Part shown: one piece after another, positions 24,919-48,147 of the stretch
Numbering within the stretch: position 1 is the stretch's first letter
How the letters are laid out: each line of letters starts with the position of its first letter
Assembly (NCBI GenBank): GCA_021815305.1
Contig: JAKAHC010000001.1
Coordinates: 620,001 to 684,000, forward strand
Direction of reading: 5' to 3'
Origin: Deltaproteobacteria bacterium
GTDB taxonomy: Bacteria > Desulfobacterota > Deferrimicrobia > Deferrimicrobiales > Deferrimicrobiaceae
Length of the DNA stretch: 64,000 bases
Notes under the pieces: model-generated
What the model saw: only the letters and a program-made list of their open reading frames with translations
Told to the model about the DNA's origin: nothing
Database searches by the model: none
Translations under genes and position numbers: made by a program

Positions 24919-26181
24919 TTGCGCTTCCGTCGTCCCGACAAGGCGAAGATCGCGATGTTCCTGGCGGTGCTCGGGCCGGGGATCGTCACCGCGAATGTCG
25001 ACAACGACGCGGGCGGCATCGCCACGTACTCGATCGCGGGCGCCCAATTCGGGTACTCCCTGCTGTGGACCCTCATCCCCATCACGATCGCGCTGATCGT
25101 CGTCCAGGAGATGGTCGCCCGGATGGGCGTGGTGACGGGAAAGACGCTGGCGGACCTCGTACGCGAGAAGTTCGGCATCCGTCCGACGTTCTTCCTCCTC
25201 CTCGCGCTGGTGCTCGCCAACCTCGGCAACACCGTTGCGGAGTTCGCCGGCTGGGCCGCGGCCCTTGAGATTTTCGGCGTCAGCAAATACCTCTCCGTGC
25301 CGATCGGGGCGATTGCGGTCTGGTTCCTCGTCGTCAAGGGGACGTACCGGGTGGTGGAAAAGATCTTCCTGTTCGCCTGCACGATCTATTTCACCTACAT
25401 CGTCTCCGCCGTTTTCGCCCACCCGCGATGGGGAACGGTCGTCGCCGAACTGGCGACGCCGCACCTGCGGATGGACGGTGCGTACCTGACGATGATCATC
25501 GGCGTCGTCGGTACGACGATCGCCCCCTGGATGCAGTTCTACCTGCAGTCCGCCGTGGTCGAGAAGAACGTCGAAGTGGAGGATTACCGGTACTGCCGGA
25601 CGGACGTGGTCGTCGGGTGCGTCATGACGGACGTGGTGGCCCTGTTCATCATCGTCGCGTGCGGCGCGACGTTGTTCGTCAACGGCGTGAGCATCGAGGG
25701 AGCCAAGGACGCCGCTATGGCCCTTGCCCCGTTTGCGGGAAAACACGCCTCGACCCTGTTCGCCATCGGCCTGGCGAACGCCTCCCTGTTCGCCGCCTCC
25801 ATCCTGCCGCTGTCGACTGCCTACAGCGTCTGCGAGGGGATGGGGTGGGAATCCGGCATCGACAAGGATTTCCGCACCGCCCCCCAGTTCTTCTGGCTCT
25901 ACACCGGGCTCATCGTCCTCGGCGGTGCGCTGGTCCTCTACCCCCAGGCCCCGCTGATCCTCATCATGTACCTGTCCCAGGTCGTGAACGGCGTGATGCT
26001 CCCCTTCGTCCTGGTCTTCATGCTGAAACTCATAAACGACAGGGAACTGATGGGAGAGCACGTCAACTCGAGGGCGTTCAACGGGATCGCCTGGACCACC
26101 ACGGTGGTGATGATCGTCCTGACCGTTCTTCTGGTGGTGGTGACCGTCTTCCCGGGGCTGCCGGGGTTTCTCGGACTCTGA
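24919..26181 (+). CDS. Nramp-related transporter, probable magnesium type (NRMT)
   Basis: A 420-residue, ~11-TM Nramp-fold transporter whose ion site departs from classical Nramps. In TM1 the DPGN motif is replaced by DAGG (GPGIVTANVDNDAGGIATY). In TM6 the MPH motif is replaced by APW (GTTIAPWMQFYLQSA). Loss of the TM6 Met and the TM1 Asn, with Asp kept, is the pattern reported for Nramp-related Mg2+ transporters, which favour hydrated Mg2+ or Mn2+. TTG start with GGAGGAGAGCGGC before it. The convergent neighbour 60 bases away is a detached MgtE-type Mg2+ sensor, which supports magnesium as substrate. Confidence 0.82.
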   Translation: MRFRRPDKAKIAMFLAVLGPGIVTANVDNDAGGIATYSIAGAQFGYSLLWTLIPITIALIVVQEMVARMGVVTGKTLADLVREKFGIRPTFFLLLALVLANLGNTVAEFAGWAAALEIFGVSKYLSVPIGAIAVWFLVVKGTYRVVEKIFLFACTIYFTYIVSAVFAHPRWGTVVAELATPHLRMDGAYLTMIIGVVGTTIAPWMQFYLQSAVVEKNVEVEDYRYCRTDVVVGCVMTDVVALFIIVACGATLFVNGVSIEGAKDAAMALAPFAGKHASTLFAIGLANASLFAASILPLSTAYSVCEGMGWESGIDKDFRTAPQFFWLYTGLIVLGGALVLYPQAPLILIMYLSQVVNGVMLPFVLVFMLKLINDRELMGEHVNSRAFNGIAWTTTVVMIVLTVLLVVVTVFPGLPGFLGL

Positions 26182-41055: not shown

Positions 41056-42495
41056 CTATCCGCCTGCGGCGGACGGCCGGGGCTTCCCGGCCACGGGTTT
41101 CCTGGCGGACTTCCTCGTGGATTTCCCGCGGTGCCCCCGTTTTTTCGACGCAGCCCCCTTGTGAGCTTTCCGGACCCTGGCCGCGCCGACCCTGGCCTTC
41201 CTGGCGCGGGTCGACAGCCGGGCCTTCCGGCCTCCGCGCGCCTTCGAGTAGGCCGGGGGGGAAGAAGAGGGGTAGCCGAAGTAGGCGTTGAACGCCTCTT
41301 TCCCCACGTAGCTCCCCTTGATCTTCCACCGGTTGTCGTTGACCACGAGGGCCGCCAGGGCAAGCTTGGGGGACCCCACCGGCGCCACGCCCGCGAACCA
41401 CTCGAAGTGCACGCTCGGCGTCCATCCGGACAACGACCCGGTCTTCCCGGCGACGTCCATGTCGTGGAGCAGCGGGGTTCTCTCCGGCGTTCCGAAGGTC
41501 CTGTGCGAGGTGCCGAACTCCACGGTCTTGACCATCATCTGCACGACCGCGTTGGCCGTCTCCGGAAGCACCGTGTCCCGCCACTTCGCCGGGGTGGATT
41601 CGTACACGGTGTTCCCGTCGCGATCCTCGATTTTCTCGACGAGGACGGGGAGCGGCATCGCCCCGCCCGAGGCGAGGGCGGACATGATCATCGCCATGTG
41701 CAGCGGGGAGACGTACACCTCGCCGAAACCCGCGCCGGTGCGAGCGAGTTCATACTCGTCCCGCGGCACCTTCGCCACGCTGGGTTCCACGGGAAGCCCA
41801 AAAGGAATGTGCTCTCCGAAGCCGAACTTGGCGAGATACTCCTCCAGGACGGGTCCGCCGACGCGGTTGACGGCGACCTTGCCGAACACCGCGTTGGCGG
41901 AGCGCGCGATCGCCTCCTCGAGGGTCATCTTCGGAACGCCGCGTCCATCCCTGACGTGGATCCCCCGGCGCGTGATCCCGTAGATCCCGCCCCGGTAACT
42001 GATCTCTTCCTCGGGGGAAACCTTGCCGCGCTCGATGGCGGCGGAGGCGGTGATCACCTTGACGAGGGAGGCGGCGGGATAGATCGCCTTGAGCGGAAGC
42101 CAGGGATCGGACTCTCCCCCCCTTCGATAGCCGACGAGGGCGACCACGCGCCCGGTGTCCGGCTCCATCGCCGCGAAGACCCCGTAAGGGGGATCGAACC
42201 TGCGGAACAGATCGAAGATCTCCGACTGGAGGGCTTCGTTGAGCGACAGCGTGACCCGCGTGCCGTTGGGAAGCACCCCCTCCTGGCGCCCCGCCTGCAG
42301 AAGCGTGTAGATGTCCTGGGGGGTGAACCCGTGCTCGCGCGAGAGATCATGGTCCTCGGGCGCCGATCGGGTGGGGGGAGAGAGCTGGTGGCGGTTCGCC
42401 GCGCCGACCACGTTCGCGAGCGCCCACCCCGCGAGGAGCAGCAGCGCCACCGGGAGGCAGCGGCGGATTTTCGGCGGGATACCCGACCCGCTCAA
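41056..42495 (-). CDS. penicillin-binding transpeptidase with basic C-terminal tail
   Basis: A 479-residue single-domain DD-transpeptidase anchored by an N-terminal helix (LPVALLLLAGWALANVVGA). Catalytic motifs: SLVK (AASLVKVITASAA), SAN (IARSANAVFGKVA) and KTG (VAGKTGSLSGW). It lacks a glycosyltransferase domain, so it may cooperate with the neighbouring MtgA. The last ~75 residues are very rich in Lys, Arg, Ala and Ser, resembling histone-like tails, and could bind anionic cell-wall or nucleic acid polymers. TTG start overlaps the methyltransferase stop (TTGA) with AGGAAG before it. Confidence 0.85.
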   Translation of the reverse strand: MSGSGIPPKIRRCLPVALLLLAGWALANVVGAANRHQLSPPTRSAPEDHDLSREHGFTPQDIYTLLQAGRQEGVLPNGTRVTLSLNEALQSEIFDLFRRFDPPYGVFAAMEPDTGRVVALVGYRRGGESDPWLPLKAIYPAASLVKVITASAAIERGKVSPEEEISYRGGIYGITRRGIHVRDGRGVPKMTLEEAIARSANAVFGKVAVNRVGGPVLEEYLAKFGFGEHIPFGLPVEPSVAKVPRDEYELARTGAGFGEVYVSPLHMAMIMSALASGGAMPLPVLVEKIEDRDGNTVYESTPAKWRDTVLPETANAVVQMMVKTVEFGTSHRTFGTPERTPLLHDMDVAGKTGSLSGWTPSVHFEWFAGVAPVGSPKLALAALVVNDNRWKIKGSYVGKEAFNAYFGYPSSSPPAYSKARGGRKARLSTRARKARVGAARVRKAHKGAASKKRGHRGKSTRKSARKPVAGKPRPSAAGG

Positions 42496-43244
42496 GACTT
42501 CCTCGCGAGGCACACCAGGGCGTCCGACCCGGCGGAAAATTCCGAACGCGCGAAGTCTCCGAAAAAACGCACCTGGGTGAAACCGGCTGCCGCAAGCTTT
42601 TCCCAAAGCTCCTCCGGGTAGAGAGGATAGAGGGGAATCTCGTTCCGCGCGATCCGCGGTTGGTCCCCTGCGGAAAACCGAAGGGCGGTCCCGAAACGGA
42701 CCACCCGCCCGCTCTCCCACACGTATTTGCGGCGGAACTCCACGGAGCCGTCCCCGGTCCGGAGCAGGGGCAACTCCGTCACTCCGTCGCGCAGGAGCCG
42801 CTCGTAGTTCAGGATCTGCAGCAGGATCGTGCCGCGGGGAGAAAGCCCCGAGGATGCGTCCCCGAGGAACCTGCCCGTTTCTTCCTGCGGGACGTGTACG
42901 AGGGAATTGCCGAGACAAAGCAGGAGATCCGCCGGCGGGGAGGCGTATCGCGGCAGATCCGCGAACGTCCCCACCTCGACGCGCGTCCTCGGGCAGAAGG
43001 CGAGTTTCCGGCGGGCGATGGCGACCAGGGACGGGTCCGGGTCGAAACCCACGCAAGGGAGGCCCGCCTCCGCGAAAGGCATGAGCTGGGAACCGGTGCC
43101 GCACCCGCAATCGATTACGGACCGCACCCCCCCCTCCTCCCGCAGGGATTCCAGGAGGGACCGCTGCTCCGGGGACATGGGGAACAGGTCGTCGTACACG
43201 AGGCTTATGTCCGTATAGAAGGTCACGTGCGTTCCCGCCGCCAT
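42492..43244 (-). CDS. SAM-dependent class I methyltransferase
   Basis: About 250 residues. Motif I is VIDCGCGTGSQLMPFAEAG, the acidic residue of motif II is in CVGFDPDPSLVAIARRKL, and motif IV is ADLLLCLGNSLVHV. The opening FYTDISLVYDDLFPMSPEQ is typical of small-molecule methyltransferases. Either ATG 43244 or GTG 43226 could be the start. A TACAAT at 43243-43248 overlaps the ATG, which would favour the GTG. Substrate is unknown. Overlaps the transpeptidase gene by four bases. Confidence 0.82.
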   Translation of the reverse strand: MAAGTHVTFYTDISLVYDDLFPMSPEQRSLLESLREEGGVRSVIDCGCGTGSQLMPFAEAGLPCVGFDPDPSLVAIARRKLAFCPRTRVEVGTFADLPRYASPPADLLLCLGNSLVHVPQEETGRFLGDASSGLSPRGTILLQILNYERLLRDGVTELPLLRTGDGSVEFRRKYVWESGRVVRFGTALRFSAGDQPRIARNEIPLYPLYPEELWEKLAAAGFTQVRFFGDFARSEFSAGSDALVCLARKS

Positions 43245-43388
43245 TGTAGCAGGACGACCTTCCGCCGCAGGAAAAAAACCCCTCCGCCGGACGAAAATCT
43301 TGATCCGGCGCGAAGGGTTATCCCGGAAAAACCCGCCGTTCCACGATCCGCAGCCGCAGGTGGCGCCCCATCGCGGCCCGATCACCGG

Positions 43389-43727
43389 TCAGATGAGGAT
43401 CTCGCGGTTCGGCCCGGATGCGGGAGGAATGCCGATGGGGGGGTGTCCCGGGGGCAGCCCCGGACCCGGCTCCACGGAAGAGGGCGGCCCGCCCGGGAAT
43501 CCGCCCCCGTTCCCGGGGCCTTCTCCCCGAAAGTCGCCCCCCACGGCGCTGCACATCCCGACCATGGCGTGGATCCGGCCGCTCTGCTCCATCACGCACA
43601 CCGGGGTGCCGTGGATGAAGATCTGGCTCGAGGAAACGGCCATGCGCCGGGCGTGGACCGCCTCCCACAGGGATATGCCCGTGATCCCCAGCGCGAGAAT
43701 CAGGGCGGCGGCGAGGATGGTTTTCAC
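43389..43727 (-). CDS. small exported Gly/Pro-rich protein
   Basis: A 112-residue protein with an N-terminal signal/anchor (KTILAAALILALGITGISLWEA), a short central part with two cysteines (TPVCVMEQSGRIHAMVGMCSAV) and a C-terminal half made almost entirely of Gly and Pro (GGGFPGGPP, GPGLPPGHPP). No family recognised. GTG start with TGAGGAATTCCAC before it. Located 31 bases downstream of the other exported protein and probably co-transcribed with it. Confidence 0.6.
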   Translation of the reverse strand: MKTILAAALILALGITGISLWEAVHARRMAVSSSQIFIHGTPVCVMEQSGRIHAMVGMCSAVGGDFRGEGPGNGGGFPGGPPSSVEPGPGLPPGHPPIGIPPASGPNREILI

Positions 43728-43758
43728 GTGGAATTCCTCAAATAACGCATTTTCTCCG

Positions 43759-44355
43759 TCAGTAGGAACCGCCGTTGGAATATTCCGCAGCGGGCTTCTG
43801 CCCCACCGAATCCGCTTTTCCCGCGCCCGGGTCCCCCGTCGTCGCGCTTCCGCCCGCGGTCTCGCCCCCGGGAAACGGTGCGCCGGGAGCCGCGAGCAGC
43901 AGCGGCTGCCTGACCGTCAGGGAATTGTCGAAGGGAGAGGTGTCTCCCCACAGGAACGCTTCCCCTTTGATCCGGTACTCCCCGGGCTTCACGCCGCTGG
44001 TGTTCCAGTAGAACGTCTTGTGGGTATCCGTCTGCCCGAGGGACCACCCGAACGTGAACAGCTGCGAACCGATCAACTTCCCGTTCGCATAGACTTGCGC
44101 GGGAATCGTTTCGCTCCCTTCCCCCTTGTCATGGATCACCACGTCGATGCGGACCAGGTCCCCCACGTGGGCCCGGATCGGGGTCACCGTCACCTGCCGG
44201 ACCGCGATGTCCATGTTCATGTCGCTGCCCCCCCCGTCCGTGTCGTCCACGAGCCGCACCGGCCCGCGCAGGACCCCGGCCGTCGCCGGCCCGGCCGCAA
44301 ACACGATCATCGAGATCGTCGCCGCAACGACCCCTGCAAGCCTTCCGTACCGCAT
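43759..44355 (-). CDS. secreted CARDB-like protein
   Basis: A 198-residue exported protein with signal peptide (GRLAGVVAATISMIVFAAGPATAG). Residues ~45-140 resemble a CARDB/Ig-like adhesion domain (VTPIRAHVGDLVRIDVVIHDKGEGSETIPAQVYANGK, in parts; KTFYWNTSGVKPGEYRIKGEAFL). A Gly/Pro-rich tail follows. The upstream region is shared divergently with the zur-znu operon and contains the Zur-type boxes, so its expression may respond to zinc. Function is unknown. Confidence 0.7.
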   Translation of the reverse strand: MRYGRLAGVVAATISMIVFAAGPATAGVLRGPVRLVDDTDGGGSDMNMDIAVRQVTVTPIRAHVGDLVRIDVVIHDKGEGSETIPAQVYANGKLIGSQLFTFGWSLGQTDTHKTFYWNTSGVKPGEYRIKGEAFLWGDTSPFDNSLTVRQPLLLAAPGAPFPGGETAGGSATTGDPGAGKADSVGQKPAAEYSNGGSY

Positions 44356-44460
44356 GACCGAATCTCCTTCCCGGGTTCCGATAACCCGTTCATTAGATAG
44401 CGCCTGCAGGTTAGACGTTCCCCGGTGAGGGCGGATTCGTTCCCGCAGCCGCGACACAGT

Positions 44461-44492
44461 TGCAATAGATTTGCGGATGCAATATATTTGCG
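44461..44492. promoter_or_regulatory. two tandem Zur-type boxes
   Basis: Two near-identical 15-mers, tgcaatagatttgcg (44461-44475) and tgcaatatatttgcg (44478-44492), 17 bases apart, each with a GCAA-N5-TTGC inverted repeat. They lie directly before the zur ribosome-binding site and between divergent genes. Confidence 0.7.
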
Positions 44493-44505
44493 TACGGAGG
44501 AACCG

Positions 44506-44937
44506 ATGGGGAGACATTCCGAAGCGCTTCGCCGCCTGGGACGGCCGGTCACCCGGGGAAGGGAGGAGATCCTCCGGATCCTCGAAGAGAGTCCCCTTCC
44601 CCTCTCGTCGCGGGACCTGCGGGAGCGGTTCCCCGACCCGAAGCCCGACGCCGCCACCGTGTACCGGAACCTGGCCCTTCTTTCCTCTCTCGGCCTCGTG
44701 CGCACCGTGGCCCTGCACGAGCGCAGCCGCCGCTACGAGGCGGCCGAGGGCGAAAACCATCGCCATCGCGTCGTGTGCCGTTCCTGCGGCCGGATCGAGG
44801 CGTTCCCCGCGAGGAAATGCGATCTTTCCAGGGTCGAGGAGGACATCCGCCGGCGGTTCGGGTTCACGGTGACCGACCACTCCCTGGAGTTCTTCGGGGA
44901 TTGCCCGGAATGCCGGCGAAAGGGAAACAAGGGATGA
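44506..44937 (+). CDS. zur: Fur-family zinc regulator (Zur)
   Basis: A 143-residue Fur-family repressor. The winged helix (residues ~15-80: LPLSSRDLRERFPDPKPDAATVYRNLALLSSLGLV, in parts) is followed by the metal-binding dimer domain with NHRHRVVCRSCGRIEAF and the C-terminal CPEC that completes a structural Zn site. Assigned as Zur rather than Fur because it overlaps znuA and is followed by znuCB. The ATG at 44506 has GGAGGAACCG before it, just after the two boxes, which implies autoregulation. Confidence 0.88.
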   Translation: MGRHSEALRRLGRPVTRGREEILRILEESPLPLSSRDLRERFPDPKPDAATVYRNLALLSSLGLVRTVALHERSRRYEAAEGENHRHRVVCRSCGRIEAFPARKCDLSRVEEDIRRRFGFTVTDHSLEFFGDCPECRRKGNKG

Positions 44938-45833
44938 GAGGCGCACGATGCGCCGCCGTCGCGGCGGCTGCCACCCTGCTTGCGGCGCTCCCCGGCGCCG
45001 TTTCGGCCGCCCCGCTGCGCGTCCTGGCATCGTTCCTCCCGATGTACCTGTTCACCGTGAACGTCGTCGGGGACACCCCCGGCGTGAAAGTGGAAATGAT
45101 GCTCCCCCCGTCCGTCGGCCCCCATGATTACGCCCTGACGCCGGGGGACATGCGGAAGATCGCGTCGGCGGACCTCTTCGTCGCCAACGGGCTGGGGATG
45201 GAGGAGTTCCTCGGCCCTCCGGCACGAAAGGCGAATCCCCGCCTGAGGGTCGTGGAGACGGCGGCATCCGTGGCCCCCTTGAAGGAAATCCCCGGGAAAG
45301 GGCATGCCGGGCACGCGGAGACCAACCCCCACTCCTGGGTCAGCCCGAAAAACGCGATCCTCCAGGTGCGCGCCATCGAGCAGGCGCTGATCGCGGCCTC
45401 TCCGGGCAACGCCGCGCGATTCCGCGAAAATGCCGCCGCCTACGTCCGCCGCCTCCGGACCCTCGACAGGGCGTACGAGGAGGCGTCGAAAACCTTTCGG
45501 GGCAGGAACATCGTCACGTTCCACAACGCCTTTGACTATCTCGCGCGGGATTACGGACTCACGATCGTGGGAGAGGTCGAGACCGCCCCCGGGCAGGAAC
45601 CGTCGGCGGGGGAGATCCTGGCGCTCGTCCGGACGATCCGGGAGAAGCGCGTCCCGGCGCTGTTCGCCGAGCCCCAATTCCCCACGCGGACCGCCGAAAC
45701 CATCGCGCGGGAGGCGAGCATCCCCATGCGGGTGCTGGACCCCGTCGACACCGGCTCCACGGCGCCGGAGACGTACGAGAAGGTCATGCGCCGCAACCTC
45801 GACGTCCTCAAGGAGGCGCTGTCGGGCCGATGA
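44934..45833 (+). CDS. znuA: zinc ABC transporter substrate-binding protein
   Basis: A 299-residue periplasmic binding protein of the cluster A-I family. Signal peptide (AVAAAATLLAALPGAVSAA). Metal ligands visible: His in VGPHDYALTPGD, His in NPHSWVSPKNA, His in VTFHNAFDYLARDYGL, and Glu/Asp near the C-terminus (LDPVDTG). A short His-containing loop (KGHAGHAETN) replaces the long His-rich loop of many ZnuA proteins. ATG overlaps the zur stop. Mn binding is possible, but the Zur context favours Zn. Confidence 0.92.
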   Translation: MRGARCAAVAAAATLLAALPGAVSAAPLRVLASFLPMYLFTVNVVGDTPGVKVEMMLPPSVGPHDYALTPGDMRKIASADLFVANGLGMEEFLGPPARKANPRLRVVETAASVAPLKEIPGKGHAGHAETNPHSWVSPKNAILQVRAIEQALIAASPGNAARFRENAAAYVRRLRTLDRAYEEASKTFRGRNIVTFHNAFDYLARDYGLTIVGEVETAPGQEPSAGEILALVRTIREKRVPALFAEPQFPTRTAETIAREASIPMRVLDPVDTGSTAPETYEKVMRRNLDVLKEALSGR

Positions 45834-46624
45834 GCGCGGAGGAGCGCCTGCACACGCTCTCGATCCGCAACCTCTCCGTGCGCAGGGGAGGCGTGGAGAT
45901 CCTCGCGGGGGTGGACGCCGACATCCGGTGCGGCGAGGTGACGGCCCTGATCGGCCCGAACGGAGCGGGGAAGACCACCCTGCTCCAGGCGATCCTGGGA
46001 CAGGTCCCCTACACCGGGGAGATCCGGTTCTGCCGCGCGCGGGAGCACGGCGAGGGAGTCCCCCGCATCGGATACGTCCCCCAGCAACTCCCCTTCGACA
46101 GGGATACCCCCCTCTCGGTCCTCGACTTCTTCGCCCTCTCCCAGCAGCGGTACCCGGTGTTCTTCGGCCACTCCCGCCGGGTGCGGCGATCGGCGCAGGA
46201 CAGTCTCGACCGCGCCGGGGTGGGCCACCTCCTGCACCGCCCGTTGGGAAGGCTGTCCGGGGGGGAGTTCCAGCGGGTCCTCTTCGCCCTCGCGGTGCGG
46301 GATGCTCCCGACATCCTCCTCCTCGACGAGCCGGTATCCGGAGTGGACGTCGCCGGGGCGGAGCAGTTCTGCGACTTCCTCTCCCAGGTGCAGCGCAGCT
46401 CGAAGTTCGGCCTGCTCCTGGTGAGCCATGACCTGTCGGTGGTGACGCGCCACGCCGACCAGGTGATCTGCCTCAACCGCCGCATCGTGTGCCGGGGGGC
46501 GACGACCGAGGTGCTCACTCCGGAAAACCTCGCCTCGATGTACGGCGGGGAGGCGCACCTGTTCCGCCACGCCCCCGCGGACGGCCACGGGCACCTCCAC
46601 GGCCTCCCCGAAGGGAAAGGGTGA
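45830..46624 (+). CDS. znuC: zinc ABC transporter ATP-binding protein
   Basis: A 264-residue ATPase. Walker A GPNAGGAGKTT-type loop reads GPNGAGKTTLLQAIL, the signature is LSGGEFQRVLFALA, Walker B is DILLLDEPVSGVD and the switch His is in LVSHDL. The C-terminus is histidine-rich (HLFRHAPADGHGHLHG), a feature often linked to zinc buffering in ZnuC. ATGA overlap with znuA. Confidence 0.92.
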   Translation: MSAEERLHTLSIRNLSVRRGGVEILAGVDADIRCGEVTALIGPNGAGKTTLLQAILGQVPYTGEIRFCRAREHGEGVPRIGYVPQQLPFDRDTPLSVLDFFALSQQRYPVFFGHSRRVRRSAQDSLDRAGVGHLLHRPLGRLSGGEFQRVLFALAVRDAPDILLLDEPVSGVDVAGAEQFCDFLSQVQRSSKFGLLLVSHDLSVVTRHADQVICLNRRIVCRGATTEVLTPENLASMYGGEAHLFRHAPADGHGHLHGLPEGKG

Positions 46625-46627
46625 TCC

Positions 46628-47485
46628 GTGGAAGGAGTCCTCCTCCACGTTTTCGGCCTCATGGAGCGGCTTCTCCCCTTCTCCTTCGCGGAGCCGATGT
46701 TCATGAAGCGCGCCCTCCTCGCCCTGCTGCTGATCGCCCCGGCGGCGGCGGCCGTCGGCGTGCCGCTGGTCCAGTTCCGGATGGCGTTCTTCTCCGACGC
46801 CATCGGCCACTCCGCCTTCACGGGCGTCGCCCTGGGGATCCTTCTCGGAGTCTCGCCGTCGTGGACCGTCGCCGCCTTCGGCGCCTTTGTGGCGGTGGCG
46901 ATCACCCTGGTCAAGGGGCACACCGACCTCTCCACGGACGCGGTCATCGGCGTATTCTTCTCCACCGTCATCGCGCTCGGAATCGCGATTATCAGCAGCC
47001 GGAAGGGCCTGACGAGGAACCTCCAATCGTTCCTTTACGGAGATCCGCTCGCCGTATCCGACGCGGAACTCCTCTGGATGGCGGGGCTCCTGTTCACCGT
47101 GGGCGTCTACCTCTTCTTCGCCTACAACCGGATCCTTCTGCTGGGCGTGCACGAAGGGTTCGCGCGCACGAAAGGGGTTCCGGTGCGCGCCGTGGAGATC
47201 TCCTTCTCCCTGATCGTGGCCCTGGTGGTGACCGCCGCCATCAACGCCGTGGGCATCCTTCTCGTCACCGCCATGCTCGTCATCCCGGCCACCGCAGCGC
47301 GCAATGTCGCGCGGGGCGCCGGGACGGCTTTCCACCTCTCCGTGGGGATCGCACTCCTGTCGGGGATCTCCGGCCTCATCGCTTCCTACTACCTCGACAC
47401 CGCCACCGGGGCGACCGTCGTCCTCGCGGCCGCCGCCTGCTTCTTCCTCACGGCGCTGTTCCGGGCGCTGCGCCCCGCGGGGTAA
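46628..47485 (+). CDS. znuB: zinc ABC transporter permease
   Basis: A 285-residue ABC-3 family permease with about eight membrane segments. The family motif AFFSDAIGHSAFTGVALG is followed by the GVHEGFARTKGVPVRAVEI coupling loop and AINAVGILLVTAMLVIPATAARNVA. GTG start three bases after the znuC stop. Last gene of zur-znuACB. Confidence 0.92.
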   Translation: MEGVLLHVFGLMERLLPFSFAEPMFMKRALLALLLIAPAAAAVGVPLVQFRMAFFSDAIGHSAFTGVALGILLGVSPSWTVAAFGAFVAVAITLVKGHTDLSTDAVIGVFFSTVIALGIAIISSRKGLTRNLQSFLYGDPLAVSDAELLWMAGLLFTVGVYLFFAYNRILLLGVHEGFARTKGVPVRAVEISFSLIVALVVTAAINAVGILLVTAMLVIPATAARNVARGAGTAFHLSVGIALLSGISGLIASYYLDTATGATVVLAAAACFFLTALFRALRPAG

Positions 47486-47577: not shown

Positions 47578-48147
47578 ATGAAGCTTACGGGATCGCGAAC
47601 GGAGAAGAACCTGATGGCGGCGTTCGCCGGGGAATCGCAGGCGCGCAACCGGTACGCCTTCTACGCGGGGATCGCGTCCAAGGAGGGGCATGAGGGGATC
47701 GCACGCATCTTCCTGGAGACCGCGGACCACGAAAAGATGCACGCGAAGCGGTTTTTCAGCCAACTGGAGGGGACCGACGTGGAGATCCAGGCGGGCTACC
47801 CGAGCCGGATCGGGGACACCCTCGTCAATCTGGAGGCCGCTGCGGACGGCGAGCGGGAGGAGTGGACGAACCTTTACCCGGCCTTCGGCAAGACGGCGCT
47901 GGAGGAAGGATTCGCGGCGGCGGCGGCGATTTTCCGCGGAGTCACGGGGGTAGAGGCGCACCACGAGGCCCGCTACCGGCGTCTCTTCGATCAGGTGAAG
48001 TCGGGTACCCTGTACAAGCGCCCGGAGCCCGTCCGCTGGAAATGCGCCAAGTGCGGCCACATCCACGAAGGACCGGAGGCTCCCAAGACCTGCGTCGTCT
48101 GCGCCCACCCGCAAGGGTGGTTCGCTCCCATCGAGGCCATCTATTAG
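47578..48147 (+). CDS. rbr: rubrerythrin
   Basis: A 189-residue peroxide-reducing protein of anaerobes. The ferritin-like di-iron domain (residues 1-~145) has the ExxR and ExxH motifs ([42 protein letters not shown]). A C-terminal rubredoxin-like Fe(Cys)4 site has [12 protein letters not shown] and [11 protein letters not shown]. All ligands are intact. Own promoter, and a hairpin terminator downstream. Supports an anaerobic or microaerophilic lifestyle. Confidence 0.95.

Follow-up and report, generated by a model that had tools for sequence, protein, structure and literature searches.

Results

Gene organization around zur-znuACB

The window, i.e. the whole stretch of 64,000 nucleotides that was analyzed, belongs to a genome of 2.77 Mb in 13 contigs. 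It contains a zinc-type ABC transporter operon headed by a gene for a Fur-family regulator and, in the opposite orientation, two ORFs for exported-looking proteins, here designated CARDB and GP2, which are followed by genes for a methyltransferase and a transpeptidase. The features are listed with their positions in the window.

41056-42495, minus strand: penicillin-binding transpeptidase-domain protein, 3' of the methyltransferase gene
42492-43244, minus strand: SAM-dependent methyltransferase, whose gene follows GP2 in the conserved block
43389-43727, minus strand: GP2, small exported or membrane-anchored Cys/His protein, 112 aa, no library match
43759-44355, minus strand: CARDB-fold protein, exported-looking, 198 aa (fold model and Pfam hits of relatives)
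44411-44438, minus strand: candidate CARDB-GP2 promoter, GAAT-N17-CGTCTAA, which fits the family motif loosely and overlaps another such loose match
44460-44488, plus strand: sigma-70 type promoter TTGCAA-N17-TATATT facing zur, inside both boxes
44461-44475, plus strand: Zur-type box 1, distal to zur, 15 bp, over the zur -35 hexamer (GCAA-N5-TTGC at 44462-44474)
44478-44492, plus strand: Zur-type box 2, proximal to zur, 15 bp, over the zur -10 hexamer (GCAA-N5-TTGC at 44479-44491)
44506-44937, plus strand: zur, Fur-family regulator, 143 aa (Pfam FUR, 4.9e-20)
44934-45833, plus strand: znuA-type metal substrate-binding protein (Pfam ZnuA, 6.4e-75)
45830-46624, plus strand: znuC-type ATPase (Pfam ABC_tran)
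46628-47485, plus strand: znuB-type permease (Pfam ABC-3)

The zur product carries a Fur-family domain (Pfam FUR, 72.3 bits at a cut-off of 23.1), and direct reading of its translation revealed two CxxC pairs, CRSC and CPEC. Two CxxC pairs constitute the structural zinc site of Zur. The protein did not reach the NCBIfam Zur equivalog (29.3 bits, cut-off 167) and, among the matches listed, also stayed below the cut-offs of the Fur and PerR models. As none of these curated cut-offs was passed, the name Zur rests on the operon context, and the metal sensed may be Mn or Fe instead of zinc. For the ZnuA-like protein, the best NCBIfam model was AztC, with 175.6 bits below its cut-off of 350. A close homologue of this Zur (>180 bits) is encoded in 18 of the 24 genomes of the family. 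Behind znuB, at 47578-48147, lies a gene that we named rubrerythrin-like by eye; homologues were seen near znu at seven loci in one neighborhood survey and at three in another.

The divergent gene pair encodes a CARDB-fold protein and the small Cys/His protein GP2

An earlier note on this DNA had described a secreted pair, one protein CARDB-like and the other Cys-containing and Gly/Pro-rich, divergent from zur-znuACB. Both ORFs were confirmed, while the signal peptides were recognized by eye only. Since merely 31 bp separate them, the two ORFs plausibly form one transcription unit.

The CARDB protein of the window had no significant Pfam match, but five of ten relatives matched Pfam CARDB (PF07705; best E-value 4.1e-6). 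The top three PDB matches of its structural model (mean pLDDT 75) were all to the CARDB domain of PF1109 (best E-value 1.1e-5), so the protein is predicted to have the CARDB beta-sandwich fold and resembles an Ig-like module of the cell surface or periplasm. Neither Cys nor His occurs among the invariant columns of the family alignment. Our literature search returned nothing joining CARDB with a zinc uptake regulator and little on the function of the CARDB domain. The 12 zur-linked CARDB proteins were not monophyletic in a tree of 19 proteins, and constraining them to one clade was disfavored (p-AU 0.032). In this tree, G009 was counted as zur-linked despite the split of its locus between two contigs; the copies of G024, which is from another family, and partial copies from G008, G019 and G021 were left out. 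Unlinked CARDB copies (L083, L085, L090) recur near a gene whose large product looks exported and shows I[AL]PF at its start; in L085 this product has a weak FG-GAP match below the cut-off.

In GP2, His39, Cys44, Cys59 and His95 as well as the C-terminal LPPGHPP..R...I are invariant in ten aligned members; the divergent GP2 of G011 keeps Cys44, Cys59 and His95, with H39 replaced. The predicted model (pLDDT 61.6) has a helix at the N-terminus, three strands and a loose tail. Pfam, NCBIfam and PDB sequence and fold searches yielded no family or structure match above noise, the fold test being weak because the model is poor. Sequence searches against PDB were uninformative for both proteins, and neither showed a sequence or fold match to the known zinc chaperones AztD, ZinT and PA4063 among the rows shown, again with the poor model of GP2. 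GP2 may bind metal. It is present in 12 of the 24 family genomes and, in a sample of 247 genomes from the phylum, in six, each of which belongs to this family. It apparently represents an undescribed protein family that, within Pfam, NCBIfam, PDB and the genomes searched, is confined to this bacterial family.

Two Zur-type boxes coincide with a predicted promoter facing zur

Two GCAA-N5-TTGC boxes 17 bp apart had been reported in the earlier note. They are real: their starts are 17 bp apart, they are located between zur and the exported ORFs, and the pair ends 13 bp 5' of zur. In the whole window the pattern matched three times against 0.43 expected, and none of 100 shuffles contained three or more matches. 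The third match (25226-25238) is isolated. A pair of boxes is kept at zur in 16 of the 24 family genomes (in G008 on two contigs). The earlier note was right in seeing Fur-family-type boxes at a znu operon.

Comparison of the 16 sequences revealed a promoter-like sequence embedded in the boxes. Read toward zur, the outer box provides a -35 element, TTGCAA or TTGCGA (TTGCCA in G014), and at a distance of N17 the inner box provides a -10 element, which is TATATT in ten cases, TATAGT in two and TATATC, TAAATT, TATACT and TATAAT in one each. The pair of G014 fell outside the first promoter pattern and was added to this comparison from its sequence. The inner, zur-proximal box is near-invariant including its center, where TATA is kept except for TAAA in one sequence; the center of the outer box varies more. 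In the window, this promoter was the sole sigma-70-like site found in 43100-44700 (shuffle mean 0.2). Across the 16 loci the boxes are 2-24 bp away from the first in-frame zur start codon; for these distances and for the upstream-motif scan below, start codons or box edges were provisional in G008, G014, G018 and G021 and may be off by up to 24 bp. The divergent gene is further away, i.e. 62-131 bp at 12 CARDB loci and 83-278 bp at three loci in which GP2 comes first, as determined with checked start codons. The largest distance is that in G020, where 278 bp separate the boxes from the first exported gene, whose motif is 221 bp away from them. A palindromic candidate operator hence overlaps the predicted promoter of the zinc-uptake operon, as would be expected for Zur.

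Searches for a wider Zur regulon gave no excess over controls. A single box with up to two mismatches had 34 matches in the 24 genomes; 25 of them are at zur, and the other nine compare with 13 for the reversed control. In G000, a related pattern matched six times besides the pair and five times in the control. Allowing up to three mismatches, box pairs beyond zur amounted to a few 3-mismatch sites, including the only one in G010, while control matches occurred in seven genomes. A single box with one mismatch is located within the first codons of a gene for a His-rich CzcB-like efflux protein (L117; G004:C28:12077-12091), which adjoins a CzcA-like gene (both named by eye). As it lies in coding sequence and was seen in one genome only, this box is probably due to chance.

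CARDB and GP2 are lasting neighbors of the znu operon

The earlier note had suggested searching other znu loci for the same neighbors. Among the 18 Zur-bearing genomes, the contigs of G009 and G023 end just past the boxes, leaving 16 with readable flanks, and in 15 of these CARDB and/or GP2 are divergent from zur. The neighborhood is therefore conserved, whereas a lack of conservation would, by the earlier note, have spoken against its proposal. Both genes are present at zur in seven genomes (G000, G003, G006, G008, G013, G014 and G015, the GP2 gene of G014 being cut by the contig end), CARDB alone in five (G007, G018, G019, G021 and G022, the locus of G019 being broken and lacking boxes) and GP2 alone in three (G004, G005 and G020). 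Only G012 has neither. In G009, the CARDB-GP2 genes are at the end of another contig. G011 lacks this Zur, and GP2 still faces znuA there, but no Zur box was found upstream of this GP2 gene.

The methyltransferase and transpeptidase genes also recur in the block. They are found even in G001, whose locus lacks CARDB, GP2 and zur and has znuA directly facing the methyltransferase gene; this suggests an old gene order that can persist passively. In G004, G005, G015 and G020, a reversed gene for an outer-membrane protein of the Phenol_MetA_deg type is located between GP2 and the methyltransferase gene (L079 8095-9060, L080 8086-9042, L076 6678-7652 and L098 8065-9063; three of the four proteins were scanned against Pfam). 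With this gene inserted, CARDB/GP2 should be a unit of their own in these four genomes.

A second motif precedes the exported genes

Upstream of the CARDB and GP2 genes we found a family motif, GAA[T/C]-N17/18-CATCNAA. Of 23 upstream regions, 12 carry it when scored strictly and 17 when scored loosely (shuffle means 0.02 and 0.28, respectively), counts that are not independent because the motif was defined on the same sequences. The 23 regions leave out G019 with its broken locus, one G005 copy at a contig end, a partial unlinked copy of G021 and two G024 copies. The motif is absent from six regions, i.e. those of G006, G018 and G021 at zur, of the G011 GP2 gene and of two unlinked CARDB copies, and the window's own genome has only a loose match (CGTCTAA). 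Among six unlinked CARDB copies examined, four carry the motif (two strict, two loose), and no Zur box was found at any of the unlinked copies.

In the 24 genomes, GAAT-N17-CATCTAA matched 18 times, whereas the reversed pattern did not match at all. CARDB genes follow six of the matches, one of these genes being unlinked to zur, and the other 12 matches are elsewhere. Four precede subtilase-like ORFs, three of which carry Pfam S8, the fourth being a 144-aa fragment without it. Other matches precede genes for an outer-membrane efflux protein and a secreted-repeat protein, and three precede genes for apparently cytoplasmic enzymes (glyoxalase, E1 dehydrogenase and chalcone-synthase type); the remainder has no confidently assigned downstream gene. 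The sites before the subtilase-like genes of four genomes (L153, L157, L164, L165) have similar spacers.

Promoters of the ECF sigmaE type consist of a GAAC-type -35, a spacer of N16-17 and a TCTRA -10. The -10 side of the motif, CATCTAA, resembles this -10, with 18 versus 0 matches for GAAT and at least 14 versus 10 for GAAC. The classical ECF -35 was discarded, as GAAC is barely enriched (14 listed sites, 10 in the control), and the type of sigma factor is therefore unsure. The sites at subtilase-like genes hint at an envelope regulon that would be served by a dedicated sigma factor.

Spacing between boxes and motif

At five CARDB loci from three genera (G003, G015, G022 and two in G008), the distance from the box edge to the motif is exactly 15 bp. 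It is 14 bp in G014, 16 bp in G007, 20 bp in G013 and 22 bp in G000, while G006, G018 and G021 lack the motif. The five 15-nt spacers average only 39% identity, and from the motif to the start codon the length ranges between 20 and 88 nt; a constant distance despite such divergence hints at some coupling. One genus accounts for three of the five loci, and one genome for two of these three, so the spacing may reflect common ancestry. At the GP2-first loci the distances are 27, 47 and 221 bp. Going by these patterns, Zur may tune CARDB in some genera, perhaps in the sense opposite to that expected by the earlier note.

Discussion

The reading we favor, at a probability of roughly two in three, is that the boxes represent an autoregulatory operator of zur-znuACB, and that CARDB-GP2 would be an independent envelope transcription unit with a motif of its own. 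One Zur dimer would occupy the box over the -35 and a second the box over the -10 of the promoter toward zur. Metal-loaded Zur would shut zur-znuACB, and metal starvation would open the operon. CARDB-GP2 would be read from GAA[T/C]-N17/18-CATCNAA, perhaps a promoter for an alternative sigma factor, common to unlinked CARDB copies and subtilase-like genes. The position, orientation and conservation of the boxes, the promoter-like sequence embedded in them and the second motif are directly seen in the genomes, and from these we infer Zur binding, the identity of the metal, the sigma factor and actual expression. Given their separate promoter-like motif, CARDB and GP2 are probably not simple zinc-starvation proteins.

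It is conceivable, at appreciably lower probability, that znu-zur, CARDB-GP2, methyltransferase and transpeptidase are passive neighbors in an old gene order without regulatory meaning, a proposal compatible with an autoregulatory operator next to an independent envelope unit. The recurrence of methyltransferase and transpeptidase genes, also in G001 without CARDB, GP2 and zur at the locus, fits with it; on the other side, CARDB/GP2 stay at zur in four genomes despite the reversed gene before the methyltransferase gene, and the near-constant spacing of 14-16 bp in seven loci would not be expected.

A two-faced element appears rather unlikely. In this case, the boxes would switch off zur-znuACB and, lying upstream at a nearly fixed distance, also tune an envelope-type CARDB/GP2 promoter, thereby linking zinc status to surface proteins, and GP2 would be a new family-specific envelope metal or redox protein.

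The earlier note had raised shared control; on this reading Zur on the boxes would repress both directions, and CARDB and GP2 would serve as zinc-starvation proteins, perhaps for extracellular zinc capture. That CARDB and/or GP2 are kept divergent from zur in 15 of 16 readable genomes, that GP2 faces znuA in G011 even without this Zur, and that GP2 has four invariant Cys and His residues are in line with this proposal. We nevertheless regard it as unlikely. The boxes coincide with the sigma-70-like promoter facing zur, whereas most exported genes have a different motif, which is also present at four of six unlinked CARDB copies without boxes. Boxes and motif are 221 bp apart in G020, and the region upstream of the G011 GP2 gene showed no box. 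The arrangement in G001, znuA next to the methyltransferase gene without the pair, points to an old order that can be passively kept. Nor do the proteins speak for zinc capture: no Cys or His is invariant in CARDB, and GP2, with its poor model, matched no known zinc chaperone.

Weakest, and quite improbable, is the idea that Zur acts in the opposite sense, the pair being on when zinc is plentiful: metal-loaded Zur would activate CARDB-GP2 from a site 14-22 bp ahead of its -35, or the back-to-back zur promoter would compete with it. The 15-bp distance with diverged spacers in five loci of three genera, the 14, 16, 20 and 22 bp in four more, and activation of S. coelicolor zitB from an upstream box (PMC5472717) speak in its favor, but the GP2-first loci have 27, 47 and 221 bp, no box was seen at unlinked copies sharing the motif, and ancestry may account for the 15-bp loci.

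Taken together, the data provide a conserved candidate operator for the Fur-family regulator that goes with znuACB, in a lineage represented here chiefly by metagenome-assembled genomes, and define a small protein family, GP2, as well as a CARDB protein as lasting neighbors of this operon. They also call for caution, as genes on either side of an intergenic region with regulator boxes need not be under shared control, and the second motif points to an envelope regulon.

Comparison with known systems

Literature searches returned nothing on Zur in combination with RegPrecise and Desulfovibrio, and among the papers listed on Zur none mentioned Deltaproteobacteria. The best fold match of the window protein is the CARDB domain PF07705 of P. 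furiosus PF1109 (3idu); unlike there, CARDB is here a stand-alone, single-domain, exported-looking protein, whose window member lacks a Pfam CARDB match. AztABCD and further systems equipped with additional periplasmic zinc proteins resemble the present locus in having an exported protein gene beside a zinc-type ABC transporter, and the ZnuA-like protein scores best against AztC, albeit below the cut-off. In contrast to AztABCD, none of the zinc-chaperone models in NCBIfam or Pfam was matched by CARDB or GP2.

Zur acts as an activator at S. coelicolor zitB, from a box that lies 8 nt ahead of the -35 (PMC5472717). Here, too, the boxes are 5' of the exported genes' motif, at 14-22 bp in nine CARDB loci, but the target there is a zinc exporter, and the boxes here also form the zur promoter. 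The arrangement of the boxes has a parallel at S. coelicolor znuA and B. subtilis yciC, where, according to a review (PMC6103462), two Zur boxes likewise cover the -35 and the -10, one each; the present locus differs in its box sequence, TGCAANNNNNTTGCA, in having zur as the first gene of the operon and in the exported genes on the opposite side.
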